Assembly (NCBI GenBank): GCA_017405785.1
Contig: JAFQZR010000005.1
Location: forward strand, 124,001 to 188,000
Reading direction: 5' to 3'
DNA from: Erysipelotrichaceae bacterium
Lineage (GTDB): Bacteria > Bacillota_I > Bacilli_A > Erysipelotrichales > Erysipelotrichaceae
DNA: 64,000 nt
Positions 2,236 through 13,645 of the stretch are shown piece by piece. The notes beneath the pieces were generated by a model, which did not search any database, was not told the DNA's origin, and was given only the letters and a program-made list of their open reading frames with translations. Positions within the stretch are counted from its first letter, which is position 1; the number at the start of each line of letters is the position of its first letter. The position numbers were made by a program, and so were the translations under genes.

Positions 2236-2320
2236 AAATGAGGGAGTAACAGACACGCAAGTGTGGTGAAGCCGTCAACCGGTAGAAATACCCGGCGAAC
2301 ATTAAATTGTGAGACTCATG
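2236..2320 (+). ncRNA. yybP-ykoY (manganese) riboswitch aptamer
   Basis: The closing stem P1 is ATGAG (2238-2242) with CTCAT (2315-2319). Inside it lie the conserved block GGGAGTAAC, a GNRA-capped hairpin (ACAC 2253-2256 with GTGT 2261-2264), the conserved GTCAACC at 2274-2280, a CCGG/CCGG arm, and GAGAC before the P1 3' strand. This order matches the yybP-ykoY family, which binds Mn2+ and usually turns on manganese export or metal-homeostasis genes. The P1 3' strand is shared with the following terminator, so ligand binding should favour transcription. Family recognition is by eye; a covariance-model match would settle it. Confidence 0.8.
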
Positions 2321-2349
2321 TAGCTTAACTGCTGTATGAGTTTTTATTT
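2314..2349 (+). terminator. First riboswitch terminator (T1)
   Basis: ACTCATGTAGC (2314-2324) pairs over 11 bp, with two G-U wobbles, with GCTGTATGAGT (2331-2341) and is followed by a T-rich tract. Its 5' arm contains the CTCAT that also closes riboswitch P1, so the two structures exclude each other. Confidence 0.8.
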
Positions 2350-2363
2350 AAAAGAATAATCAC

Positions 2364-2391
2364 AGGATACAGCAGTAGCTGTATCCTTTTT
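2364..2391 (+). terminator. Second tandem terminator (T2) with an antiterminator partner in T1
   Basis: AGGATACAGC (2364-2373), loop AGTA and GCTGTATCCT (2378-2387) form a perfect 10-bp stem followed by five T. The T2 5' arm ATACAGCAGT (2367-2376) is also fully complementary over 10 bp to ACTGCTGTAT (2328-2337), which overlaps the T1 3' arm. If T1 does not form, this pairing could disrupt T2. Confidence 0.85.
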
Positions 2392-2443: not shown

Positions 2444-3859
2444 ATGGAAAAAATAATTCCTTTTGTTCGGACAGGCGCTGTTATCGTGCTGCTTGTTCTG
2501 ATACTGCTGACCGGCTATGTCAAGGCATCCCCGGATGTGGCAGTAATAATTTCGGGTCTGAAGAAAACTCCGAGAGTTCTGATCGGACGTGCCGGAATTA
2601 AGGTACCTTTCTTTGAGAAGGTTGACCATCTCCATCTGGGACAGATCTCAGTAGATATCAAGACTGACTCCTATATCCCTACCAATGATTTCATCAATGT
2701 GAAGGTCGATGCCATCGCCAAGGTGCGCATTGATACCTCTCCGGAGGGCATGCTGAAGGCTGAAAGAAACTTCCTGAACAAGGAGCCGACAGAAATTGCC
2801 CTGGAGCTGCAGGATTCCCTGCAGGGCAACATGAGAGAGATCATCGGTACCCTGGACCTCAAGACCATCAACACCGACAGAGATTCCTTCTCTGATCAGG
2901 TAATGGCCAAGGCCAGCAAGGACATGGAGAAGTTAGGTATTGAAATTCTCTCCTGCAACATTCAGAATGTAACTGATGAGAACGGTCTGATCAATGACCT
3001 GGGCATGGATAACACTTCCAAGATCAAGAAGGATGCTCAGATTGCCAGAGCAGAGGCTGACAGAGATGTCGCCATTGCCAAGGCTTTGGCTGATAAGGCT
3101 GCCAATGATGCCAGAGTTGCTGCTGAGACTGAAATTGCCAAGAAGAACAACGAACTGGCCATCAAGCAGGCTGAACTGAAGCTGGAAAGCGACAGAAAAA
3201 TAGCCATGGCTGATGCAGCCTATGAGATCCAGAAGCAGGAACAGGAAAAGACCATTCAGACCGCAACAGTCAATGCTCAGATCGCCAGAGCGGAAAGAGA
3301 AGCTGAACTGAAGCAGAAAGAAGTCGAGATCCGTCGGCAGGAGCTGACCGCCAGCATTGAGAAGCAGGCAGACGCCGACAGATATGCCCTGGAGCAGAGC
3401 GCGGAAGCTAACATGATCAGACAGAAGAAAGAAGCTGAAGCAAAGCGCTACATTGCTCAGATGGAAGCTGAAGCCATTGAAGCCAAAGGCAAGGCCGAAG
3501 CCGAAGCCATCAGATTAAAGGGCGTAGCCGAGGCAGAAGCGATGGAGAAGAAGGCTGAAGCTTATCAGAAGTACAACGGAGCAGCCATGGCAGAGATGAT
3601 GATCAAGATCATGCCTCAGCTGGCTGCAGAAATAGCCAAGCCAATCAGCGCCATTGACAAGGTCACGATCTACGACAGCGGCAGCCGCGAAAGCGGTGTG
3701 TCCCAGGTCTCTGGCAACATGCCGGTAATAATGAAGCAGGTATTTGATACCATGAGCGAAGCAACCGGTGTAGATCTCAGAGAAATCATGAAGGCCAATA
3801 CATATGATGCCAAGGTCAACAAGAACATCAATGTATCAGGTCTGGAAAACGTAAAGTAA
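2444..3859 (+). CDS. floT: Flotillin-like SPFH/band 7 membrane scaffold protein
   Basis: This 471-residue protein resembles bacterial FloT/YuaG, which assembles on the inner face of the membrane and organises functional membrane microdomains. It has one N-terminal hydrophobic segment (about residues 8-26), an SPFH domain to about residue 190, then a long Ala/Glu/Lys-rich coiled coil with repeated EAEA-type motifs to about residue 395, and a C-terminal tail. I chose ATG 2444 because GGGAGG lies just upstream; longer in-frame starts would sit inside terminator T2. It is the first gene behind the riboswitch, an unusual target for that family. Confidence 0.9.
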   Translation: MEKIIPFVRTGAVIVLLVLILLTGYVKASPDVAVIISGLKKTPRVLIGRAGIKVPFFEKVDHLHLGQISVDIKTDSYIPTNDFINVKVDAIAKVRIDTSPEGMLKAERNFLNKEPTEIALELQDSLQGNMREIIGTLDLKTINTDRDSFSDQVMAKASKDMEKLGIEILSCNIQNVTDENGLINDLGMDNTSKIKKDAQIARAEADRDVAIAKALADKAANDARVAAETEIAKKNNELAIKQAELKLESDRKIAMADAAYEIQKQEQEKTIQTATVNAQIARAEREAELKQKEVEIRRQELTASIEKQADADRYALEQSAEANMIRQKKEAEAKRYIAQMEAEAIEAKGKAEAEAIRLKGVAEAEAMEKKAEAYQKYNGAAMAEMMIKIMPQLAAEIAKPISAIDKVTIYDSGSRESGVSQVSGNMPVIMKQVFDTMSEATGVDLREIMKANTYDAKVNKNINVSGLENVK

Positions 3860-3916: not shown

Positions 3917-4426
3917 ATGAAGTATTATTTCAAGGAGAATTTCCGTTTATTATATGCTGACGGAGCACTTTACAATGTTAATGATGATCCGGTTTATACT
4001 TATGAGAACACTACGCTGTTCTTCCCACAGATAAATCTGTACAGATATGGAGAGAAGGTAGGCCATGTTAAAAAGAATTTCACCTTCTTCTTACGTCAGT
4101 ATGATATATTTGTAGGTGAGTCACTTGTTGATTCCCTGAATCAGCAGTTTACATTCTTCAGACAGGAACTGATACTGGATCGTCTGGGCTGGAGAATTGA
4201 AGGTGACTGGCTGGCTCTGAATTACCAGATCTATGACAGAAACAACAATATGCTCTGCGAGGTAAATCAGGAGATATTCCATCTGACCAGACATTACACC
4301 GTAAACGTTATTGATGAAAGCCAGGAGATAATGATATTACTGCTGGTATTGGCCATCAATCAGTATGACAAGGATGTCTCAGCTGCCAGCAGCAGCGCAA
4401 GCCACAGCCATTCATCAAATCATTAG
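3917..4426 (+). CDS. LURP-one-related (YxjI/Tubby-like) family protein
   Basis: A 169-residue soluble protein with the look of the LURP-one/YxjI fold: a string of short beta strands (YYFKENFRLLYADGALYNV, then VYTYENTTLFFPQINLYRYG) enclosing one hydrophobic helix near the C terminus (IMILLLVLAINQYD). A Ser/His-rich tail follows. Such domains are related to Tubby and scramblase folds and are thought to act at membranes. ATG 3917 is preferred over GTG 3908 because AGAGGG is eight bases upstream. It lies 57 bases after floT. Family assignment is moderately sure; the function is unknown. Confidence 0.65.
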   Translation: MKYYFKENFRLLYADGALYNVNDDPVYTYENTTLFFPQINLYRYGEKVGHVKKNFTFFLRQYDIFVGESLVDSLNQQFTFFRQELILDRLGWRIEGDWLALNYQIYDRNNNMLCEVNQEIFHLTRHYTVNVIDESQEIMILLLVLAINQYDKDVSAASSSASHSHSSNH

Positions 4427-4438
4427 GAGGGCAGAAAG

Positions 4439-4777
4439 ATGTTTGACATATTCACTTCATTATTCGGATTCGTATGGGCCTTTTTGTTCTTTGGTATCCT
4501 GGCACTGTTTGTCTATGCTTTGGTAAGCCATATACGCAAGGAAGCCGATAACAACAGACAGCCTGTCAGAAGGGTGGATGCCAGTGCGGTAACCAAAAGA
4601 ATCAATGTCAGCGGAGACAGTTCGTATACTACATATTACATAACTTTCGAGTTGGTAAATGGTGAGAGAATTGAATTTGAAGTACAAGGTGAGTTATACG
4701 GCTTGATAGTTGAAGGGGACTACGGAAGCCTTACCTATCAGGGATATAAATGTCTTGATTTCACAAGAGTAAAGTAA
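4439..4777 (+). CDS. DUF2500-type small membrane protein
   Basis: A 112-residue protein with an N-terminal hydrophobic segment (about residues 8-27) and a cytoplasmic or extracytoplasmic beta domain. The pattern TTYYITFELVNGERIEFEV, then a GDYGSLTYQG turn and a final LDFTRV strand, is typical of DUF2500. AGGAGGG stands at a good distance before the ATG. It sits between the LURP-one-like gene and the large membrane protein in the flotillin operon. The biochemical role of the family is unknown to me. Confidence 0.7.
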   Translation: MFDIFTSLFGFVWAFLFFGILALFVYALVSHIRKEADNNRQPVRRVDASAVTKRINVSGDSSYTTYYITFELVNGERIEFEVQGELYGLIVEGDYGSLTYQGYKCLDFTRVK

Positions 4778-4792
4778 TTGGAGGTATTTGAA

Positions 4793-6358
4793 ATGAACAA
4801 GAAAAGAATACTGGTAATCGCAATTGTCGGATTACTGTTAATAAACGCATTGATATTCTATGTATTACTGCCGACCATCAGCATTCATAATGTTGGTCTG
4901 TGGTTCATCGTCATGATAAATGTTATGGCAGGTACCTTCCTGTATCACCTGTTCAAAGGAACAAAGAACATAAAGGTAACAGCCTTGATTAATTTGATTG
5001 TCATACTGGGAATCGTTTTAGGCTCTCTGTTCAGCTCTGAAATGTTCCATGCAACTGCCTATTCCAATCTGCTGGATATCAGGATTTCCGACAGTGCAGA
5101 ACTGCCTACTGCTGACAAGCTCAACAAGATTCCATTAATGGATACCGAGAGTTCCAAGGTTCTGGGCAACAGAAAGATCGGTGCCCTTAATGAAATCGTC
5201 TCACAGTTTGAGGTTTCAAATGATTACATGACCATTTCCTACAAGAACGAACCTGTCAAGGTATCCGCTCTGAAGTATGCAGGACTGTGGAAGTGGAACG
5301 CCAACAGAAAGACCGGCATTCCGGGTTATGTAATGGTAAGACCAAATGATCTGACCGCTGAATACATTGAACTGAGTGAAGGCATGAAGTATGTACCAAG
5401 CGCCTTCTTCAGCGAGGATCTTAACCGTCACATCTACTTCAAGTATCCTACAGTGTTCTTTGACAACGTTCACTTTGAGATCACTGAGGACGGGGATCCG
5501 GTATATGTCGTCAGCACCTATGAATACACCATCGGACTGTTCGGTGGCAAGAAGATCACCGGCTGCATCATCATCGATCCAGTGACCGGTGACATGCAGA
5601 GATATGATCTCGATAACATTCCGCAGTGGCTGGACATTGTCTACAACGGCAACTACATTGCCAAGTACTTCGACATTTACGGCAAGCTGATCAACGGATT
5701 CTGGAACAGCCTGTTCGGTCAGAAGGGACTGATTGAGTCCACCACGACCACAACCTACAACAGTGAAGGTGAAGCAGTCAGAGAGAATGACTTCGGCTAT
5801 ATCGTTGAAAACGATGATGTCATCGTCTATACCGGTGTAACAGCCGTTACCAACGATGAAAGCAATATCGGCTATCTGATGGCCAACGAAAGAACCGGTG
5901 AGATAGTAGTGTCATACTTCGAGTCCACCGATGAAGACAGTGTCATGAGAGCCGCTGAAGGCGAAGTACAGGAAAAGGGCTACCGTGCCTGCTTCCCAAG
6001 CTTAGTTGACATCAACGGTACTCCGGCATATGTCATGGTCCTAAAGGACAAGTTAGGTCTGGTCAAGATGTATGCCATTGTGGATGCTTCTCAGTATTCT
6101 CACATGGTTGTCGGTGAGTCACTTGATAAGGTACTTGCGCAGTTTACCAACGGCAACATCACCAGTGATACTCTGCAGGAAAAGACCATAACCATCAAGA
6201 AAGTTGCCATCATCGGCAGCGGTGAGCCGGTCGTCTACATTGTAGACACCGATAACAATATCTACTATGCAGCCTTCCAGCCTGAGATGTTACTGCTGGA
6301 GGAAGGCATGGAAGTAACCATCTACACTGATGGTCAGATCTTCAGATTAAGCAGATAA
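4793..6358 (+). CDS. Conserved membrane-anchored protein, last gene of the flotillin operon
   Basis: A 521-residue protein with three closely spaced hydrophobic segments in the first 85 residues, followed by a large polar domain of about 430 residues. Recognisable blocks include FEVSNDYMTISYKNEPVKVS, a YEYTIGLFGGKKITG segment, NGFWNSLFGQKG and a C-terminal beta-rich part (TIYTDGQIFRLS). I remember similar hypothetical proteins in other Firmicutes but know no function. ATG 4793 is used because GGAGG precedes it at a normal distance. The strong terminator-like hairpin after the stop marks the operon end. Confidence 0.75.
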   Translation: MNKKRILVIAIVGLLLINALIFYVLLPTISIHNVGLWFIVMINVMAGTFLYHLFKGTKNIKVTALINLIVILGIVLGSLFSSEMFHATAYSNLLDIRISDSAELPTADKLNKIPLMDTESSKVLGNRKIGALNEIVSQFEVSNDYMTISYKNEPVKVSALKYAGLWKWNANRKTGIPGYVMVRPNDLTAEYIELSEGMKYVPSAFFSEDLNRHIYFKYPTVFFDNVHFEITEDGDPVYVVSTYEYTIGLFGGKKITGCIIIDPVTGDMQRYDLDNIPQWLDIVYNGNYIAKYFDIYGKLINGFWNSLFGQKGLIESTTTTTYNSEGEAVRENDFGYIVENDDVIVYTGVTAVTNDESNIGYLMANERTGEIVVSYFESTDEDSVMRAAEGEVQEKGYRACFPSLVDINGTPAYVMVLKDKLGLVKMYAIVDASQYSHMVVGESLDKVLAQFTNGNITSDTLQEKTITIKKVAIIGSGEPVVYIVDTDNNIYYAAFQPEMLLLEEGMEVTIYTDGQIFRLSR

Positions 6359-13400: not shown

Positions 13401-13407
13401 TTTCATA

Positions 13408-13645
13408 ACGCAATGAAAAGGAATAGTAATTTTTCACGATTTCTACAGAGAACCATGGGTGATGAGAGATGGTGTGATACGGAAAGATGAACGCGCCTTG
13501 GAGTGGTACCGGGGAAATGAGTATCCGGTTACCGGGAAGTCCCGTTACAGACAATTGAGTGCCTGAAGCAATGGCTTCAGGAATCAAGGTGGCACCACGG
13601 TTTTGATCGTCCTTGTTGAGTTGTTCAGCAAGGACGTTTTATTTA
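13408..13645 (+). ncRNA. T-box riboswitch, probably arginine-specific
   Basis: The loop E strand AGTA (13425-13428) opposes GAA (13489-13491); ATTTTTC (13429-13435) pairs with GAAAGAT above it and AAGG (13418-13421) with CCTT (13496-13499) below. The specifier window after GAA reads CGCGC, giving CGC (Arg) or GCG (Ala). The T-box AAGGTGGCACCACGG is at 13586-13600, and its bulge TGGC would pair with a tRNA ending GCCA. That needs discriminator G73, which fits arginine and not alanine (A73). The terminator stem is CGTCCTTG (13608-13615) with CAAGGACG (13629-13636) plus T tract; AAGG of the T-box can pair with CCTT of that stem as antiterminator. Uncharged tRNA should turn on the transporter operon. 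Confidence 0.9.

Follow-up and report, generated by a model that had tools for sequence, protein, structure and literature searches.

According to our analysis, the leader of a flotillin gene in an Erysipelotrichaceae genome is probably (we put the probability at about 0.72) a transcriptional ON riboswitch, in which a divergent aptamer of the yybP-ykoY type acts through a relay expression platform and the output is a flotillin operon. To a fuller proposal we give roughly even odds, namely that a chain of six segments (P1-A-X-Y-Z-W) allows one metal-binding event to remove two terminators and to lock the ON fold, and that it represents a sub-Rfam branch that is widespread within the order and was recruited to flotillin. 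All coordinates below are those of the window, the whole stretch of 64,000 nucleotides that was analysed.

Architecture of the leader

The elements of the leader are as follows.

2199-2227, + strand: promoter-like site, TTTACA-17-TATATT with an extended -10 TG (a consensus match only)
2236-2319, + strand: aptamer of divergent yybP-ykoY type (from the R1 match, joint alignment and pair counts given below)
2238-2242 with 2315-2319, + strand: P1.1, A2238-G2242 with C2315-U2319 (pairs read from the sequence and checked pair by pair)
2243-2248, + strand: aptamer loop L1, GGAGUA
2249-2252 with 2307-2310, + strand: aptamer stem P1.2
2253-2256 with 2261-2264, + strand: aptamer stem P2, GCAA loop
2271-2273 with 2294-2296, + strand: aptamer stem P3.1
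2274-2280, + strand: aptamer loop L3
2277, + strand: A2277, the L3 adenosine that aligns with the invariant Mn-contacting A41 (L. lactis) and A48 (X. oryzae)
2281-2284 with 2289-2292, + strand: aptamer stem P3.2, GAAA loop
2314-2349, + strand: T1, with the A arm 2314-2324, loop 2325-2330, 3' arm 2331-2341 and U-tract 2341-2349
2328-2337, + strand: X, ACUGCUGUAU, with A (in T1) or Y (in the antiterminator) as alternative partners
2364-2391, + strand: T2, putative second intrinsic terminator, 2364-2373 with 2378-2387, loop AGUA, U-tract 2387-2391
2367-2376, + strand: Y, AUACAGCAGU, with X (in the antiterminator) or Z (in T2) as alternative partners
2381-2405, + strand: Z:W hairpin, 2381-2390 with 2396-2405, which may lock the ON fold once readthrough has occurred

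The stem of T1 has 11 bp, including two G-U pairs, and is followed by UUUUUAUUU at 2341-2349 (-12.3 kcal/mol), while T2 has a perfect 10-bp stem followed by UUUUU at 2387-2391 (-15.4 kcal/mol). CUCAU (2315-2319) is common to P1.1 and to the 5' arm of T1 (A), and X and Y are perfectly complementary over 10 bp. The preliminary description had pointed to these features, that is to the CTCAT shared by P1 and T1, to the perfect complementarity of 2328-2337 and 2367-2376 over 10 bases and to T2 as a perfect 10-bp terminator hairpin, and all of them were borne out when the pairs were checked in the sequence. The leader as a whole folds 4.9 standard deviations better than its dinucleotide shuffles (0/200), terminator-like sites are enriched in it (4 found against 0.3 expected from shuffles), and X:Y of the window, taken alone against shuffled Y, gives p=0.002. 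The RNA is predicted to start at about 2234-2236, just ahead of P1.1, and a similar promoter-like site stands ahead of two homologous leaders, L029 and L030, which share with the window the presence of two predicted intrinsic terminators of the hairpin and U-tract type.

From these pairings the following switch may be suggested. Without ligand, A, the 3' strand of a weak 5-bp P1.1, would leave P1.1 and pair with X to form T1; with X tied up in T1, Y would pair with Z to form T2, and, both hairpins having U-tracts here, transcription could stop at two places. When the metal, presumably Mn2+, is bound, P1.1 would retain A, so that T1 would be blocked, and the free X would capture the emerging Y before Z is made, blocking T2 as well; after readthrough Z would be free to pair with W. 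The OFF fold would thus consist of A:X and Y:Z, and the ON fold of P1.1, X:Y and Z:W. T1 of the window is probably an anti-antiterminator and, at the same time, a candidate first terminator.

The full-length ON and OFF folds are 2.5 kcal/mol apart, and this near balance depends on the Z:W pairing in the ON fold, where Z is the 3' arm of T2 with its U-tract and W is 2396-2405. For the RNA that ends at 2391, with T2 just complete, the OFF fold is better than the ON fold by 11 kcal/mol, and the switch must therefore be kinetic or strongly stabilised by the ligand. Z:W is clear in the window and in L029, L030 and L143 (in L029 and L030, where it is kept, 2 to 5 of 300 shuffles are equally good), suggestive in L060 and L095 and missing in most leaders of the family; we regard it as a local addition, because it is not kept across the family.

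A divergent aptamer of yybP-ykoY type

An Rfam scan at the gathering threshold and at E<=10 returned no riboswitch family at the leader. The yybP-ykoY model, RF00080, gave no match at E<=10 in 2150-2460, so that its gathering threshold of 45 bits was not reached; in the same genome and four relatives it gave only unrelated low scores (the best one in the genome of the window, 10.8 bits, lies elsewhere), and the Rfam scan of five homologous loci gave no match. Across the family RF00080 has sub-threshold matches with E down to 7e-7, and none of 146 genomes exceeds the cut-off, mntP-linked elements included. Many of these sub-threshold matches are very probably manganese riboswitches, since they sit immediately upstream of mntP (one mntP was confirmed by Pfam). 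The control search matched Lactococcus lactis, and just two of the five matching genomes were over the cut-off. As 0/146 family genomes and 2/5 controls pass, the 45-bit threshold should be seen as a cut-off of the model and not as a defining feature. Two weak RF00080 candidates, L058 and L059, were discarded as false.

Our own covariance model, R1, comprises 14 of the weak RF00080 matches in the family, many of them upstream of mntP, the type of the window being left out. As RNAalifold found only 7 pairs in the canonical set by itself, we fixed the structure of R1 manually after the published architecture, and the pair counts of R1 lean on this choice. R1 matches 2237-2319 with 44.8 bits (E=4.7e-8), which is the sole real match in the window (next best E=1.1), and it matches every leader homologous to that of the window; the score is below the 70-90 bits of mntP elements. 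In a joint alignment with mntP-linked manganese riboswitches, GGGAGUA, the C..CA of L3 and AGAC never vary, and two-sided changes are seen in P1.1, P1.2, P2 and P3.1. A2277 falls in the C..CA motif, which is invariant in 25 sequences. In the published structures L1 and L3 hold Mn2+ between them, and the invariant adenosine of L3 contacts it through N7 (PMC6754395); the alignment suggests this role of metal contact for A2277.

With the yybP-ykoY riboswitches of L. lactis (yoaB) and X. oryzae the leader has in common the L1 sequence GGGAGUA, P1.1/P1.2, the invariant L3 adenosine and AGAC (PMC11087558, PMC6754395), and also a 3' strand of P1.1 that is shared with a terminator and a predicted ON logic. 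Unlike the crystal structures, which have a four-way junction with P4, the window has a three-way junction, and no P4 hairpin was found in its 2297-2306; P4 is likewise absent from several mntP-linked relatives, for which reason we treat it as variable. P1.2 begins with A-U in the window type, as distinct from the crystal structures and from the G-C of mntP-linked relatives, and L3 (GUCAACC) has 7 nt, one base shorter than in those structures and in the relatives, which have 8 nt. In the genus at least seven leaders keep the 7-nt L3, the base being missing after the metal-contacting adenosine in the window, L029-L032, L035 and L036. This shorter L3 of the flotillin-type leaders of the genus might change metal affinity or selectivity.

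Judged by sequence, the element is best described as a divergent branch of the yybP-ykoY class, not a standard member of it, with Mn2+ as its likely metal. The class named in the preliminary description is therefore retained by homology, through R1 (E=4.7e-8) and the joint alignment, and not by any match to RF00080.

Relay wiring across the family

Conservation of the leader extends to seven further genomes within the genus and to two more genera within the family, and it is concentrated on 2238-2319. The relatives that have names are mostly Erysipelotrichaceae metagenome-assembled genomes, several of them from ruminant gut. At E<=0.001 R1 detects Mn-type riboswitches in 176/273 family genomes, and since RF00080 brings 0/146 over its cut-off, Rfam is largely blind to the manganese riboswitches of this family clade.

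Platforms were compared in 88 family leaders found by R1. Half of them (44) have a direct platform, in which a single terminator overlaps P1.1. The arrangement is that of L. lactis, where P1.1 and the terminator exchange directly and Mn2+ switches ON (PMC11087558). About a third (31/88) possess a T1-like stem and a second terminator; T1 without a U-tract and then T2 is found in 24/88, and both terminators in nine leaders by score and in seven, that of the window included, after inspection. A few leaders were given wrong labels by the automatic T1/T2 parser (L066 and L134 were excluded), and L028, L135 and L147, which it left unclassified, are relay-like by eye. The leaders of mntP and P-type ATPase genes in the family (L041, L060, L046 and others) have the same aptamer core as the window and many of them the X:Y relay; half are of the direct single-terminator type, and most relay members, unlike the window, are devoid of a T1 U-tract. 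The Mn-type riboswitches of L169-L171, which belong to another family of the order, have two U-tract terminators with similar 5' arms, as if T2 were a duplicate of T1.

Over the 31 leaders the pairing of X with its own Y averages -14.1 kcal/mol, against -9.4 for swapped partners, and 0/20,000 partner permutations reach the observed mean, which is not a strict probability, owing to the kinship of these leaders; tested against shuffled Y, X:Y has p<0.05 in 28/31. For the type of the window, with nine distinct leaders in a register set by hand, 6 of the 10 X:Y pairs carry two-sided changes, a level reached by 0/500 shuffles, and sliding the partner removes the signal. L035 and L036, two orthologous leaders, keep a part of X:Y and have no clear T2. 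The relay wiring recurs beyond this locus and is not unique to it. Conservation and covariation of 2328-2337 with 2367-2376 in relatives, on which the preliminary description had made its relay depend, are confirmed by the permutations and the six covarying pairs; the double stop by T1 and T2 that it had also proposed would be feasible in the window, where both U-tract hairpins are present, and does not hold as a family-wide feature, the T1 U-tract being mostly missing. The low leak and the sharp switch that it expected from the relay are predictions. This tract is kept in the flotillin leaders of the genus (the window, L029 and L030; weaker in L031 and L032) and in a few others. Two terminators are a lineage-specific elaboration, and the conserved work of T1 across the family appears to be the holding of X, as an anti-antiterminator, because T1 is so often found without a U-tract.

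The same comparison bears on a simpler reading, which we consider unlikely: a manganese riboswitch with direct overlap, in which P1.1 competes with T1 only, T2 is constitutive or spare, perhaps a duplicate of T1, and X:Y is a by-product of the likeness of the hairpins. The 44/88 leaders of direct type, the good U-tract of T1 in the window and the resemblance of T2 to a copy of T1 in L169-L171 would agree with it, and so would the Bc1 c-di-GMP riboswitch, which, as the window, has tandem intrinsic terminators, there 28 bp apart, and in which the ligand unfolds T1, T2 stays intact and masks this unfolding, and the switch fails to respond; its aptamer, however, is unrelated to that of the window, and it has no relay (PMC11218506). 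Such a reading leaves unexplained why X:Y is kept in 24 leaders where T1, lacking a U-tract, would be useless, and why X:Y covaries, and a T2 with no part in the relay would shut off expression with or without the metal.

What sets the relay apart from the L. lactis and X. oryzae switches is that the terminator strand would be handed via X to a second terminator. Anti-antiterminators are classical in amino-acid attenuators, e.g. leuA in Shewanella (PMC2659441), where, as proposed for the window, the antiterminator strand is held in an upstream stem and the terminator can form; the signal there is ribosome stalling, whereas in the window an aptamer stem would open the upstream stem, itself a probable terminator. 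Our literature search, the reach of which did not include the primary yybP-ykoY papers, found no description of a relay in a manganese riboswitch.

Putative ligand and controlled genes

The genes downstream of the leader are listed here.

2444-3859, + strand: flotillin, first gene of the putative controlled operon, with SPFH/Band 7 (PF01145) and Flot (PF15975) domains
3917-4426, + strand: ORF of 169 aa, no Pfam or NCBIfam match
4439-4777, + strand: DUF2500 protein, by domain match
4793-6358, + strand: ORF of 521 aa, no Pfam or NCBIfam match

Against the NCBIfam FloT model the flotillin scores 298 bits, under the equivalog cut-off of 700. The stretch 3917-6358 is probably the rest of the flotillin operon, judging from spacing and strand. 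In L035 and L036 a homologue of the 3917-4426 ORF lies directly behind the riboswitch, and in L019, from another genus, flotillin likewise follows it. FloT and FloA of B. subtilis appear in the list of proteins found with the Mn-linked TerC proteins MeeF and MeeY (PMC10550928), which makes a link between flotillin and manganese testable.

Elsewhere in the family the elements are followed by mntP, cation P-type ATPases, Na/Ca exchangers, PiT, Na/Pi transporters and flotillin. R1 also finds a second copy in the same genome (L060 1501-1720, G000:C14:39369-39456), ahead of a cation P-type ATPase, with relay wiring as in the window and a T1 that differs in having no U-tract. Phosphate transporters, PiT or Na/Pi cotransporters, follow the same aptamer in L033, L034, L025, L026 and L027, PiT lying behind a small membrane-protein ORF in L033 and L025; one would not expect manganese to be linked with phosphate uptake.

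It is somewhat less likely still than the direct overlap that the relay is correct and the aptamer has drifted, sensing another ion or no longer responding to a ligand. One could argue so from the 7-nt L3, the lack of P4, the failure of RF00080, the 44.8 bits of R1 against 70-90 for mntP elements and the control of flotillin, which is no obvious transporter; yet L1, C..CA and AGAC do not vary, a cation ATPase gene stands behind the sister copy of the genome, and the shorter L3 is itself shared by seven or more leaders of the genus. An attenuator driven by a protein or by translation, in place of a riboswitch, would accord with the lack of a direct RF00080 match and is very improbable in view of the R1 match, the invariant residues of the metal core, the metal-gene neighbours and the conserved mutually exclusive stems.

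If the relay riboswitch is correct, it would show one aptamer acting on a remote terminator via an intermediate stem, and the direct, relay and double-terminator platforms would form a natural series on which leak and sharpness could be measured. A whole clade of manganese riboswitches, left unscored by the standard model, would come to light as well, and flotillin and phosphate transporters would join the likely manganese regulon; the six-segment chain, if true, would tie manganese to membrane-raft scaffolding.

Two further elements of the window may be mentioned. The prfB gene at 197-1295 has an in-frame CTT TGA C near 266-272, which is the classical site of programmed +1 frameshifting in release factor 2, and a strong T-box leader (RF00230, 124.8 bits) lies at 13404-13617.
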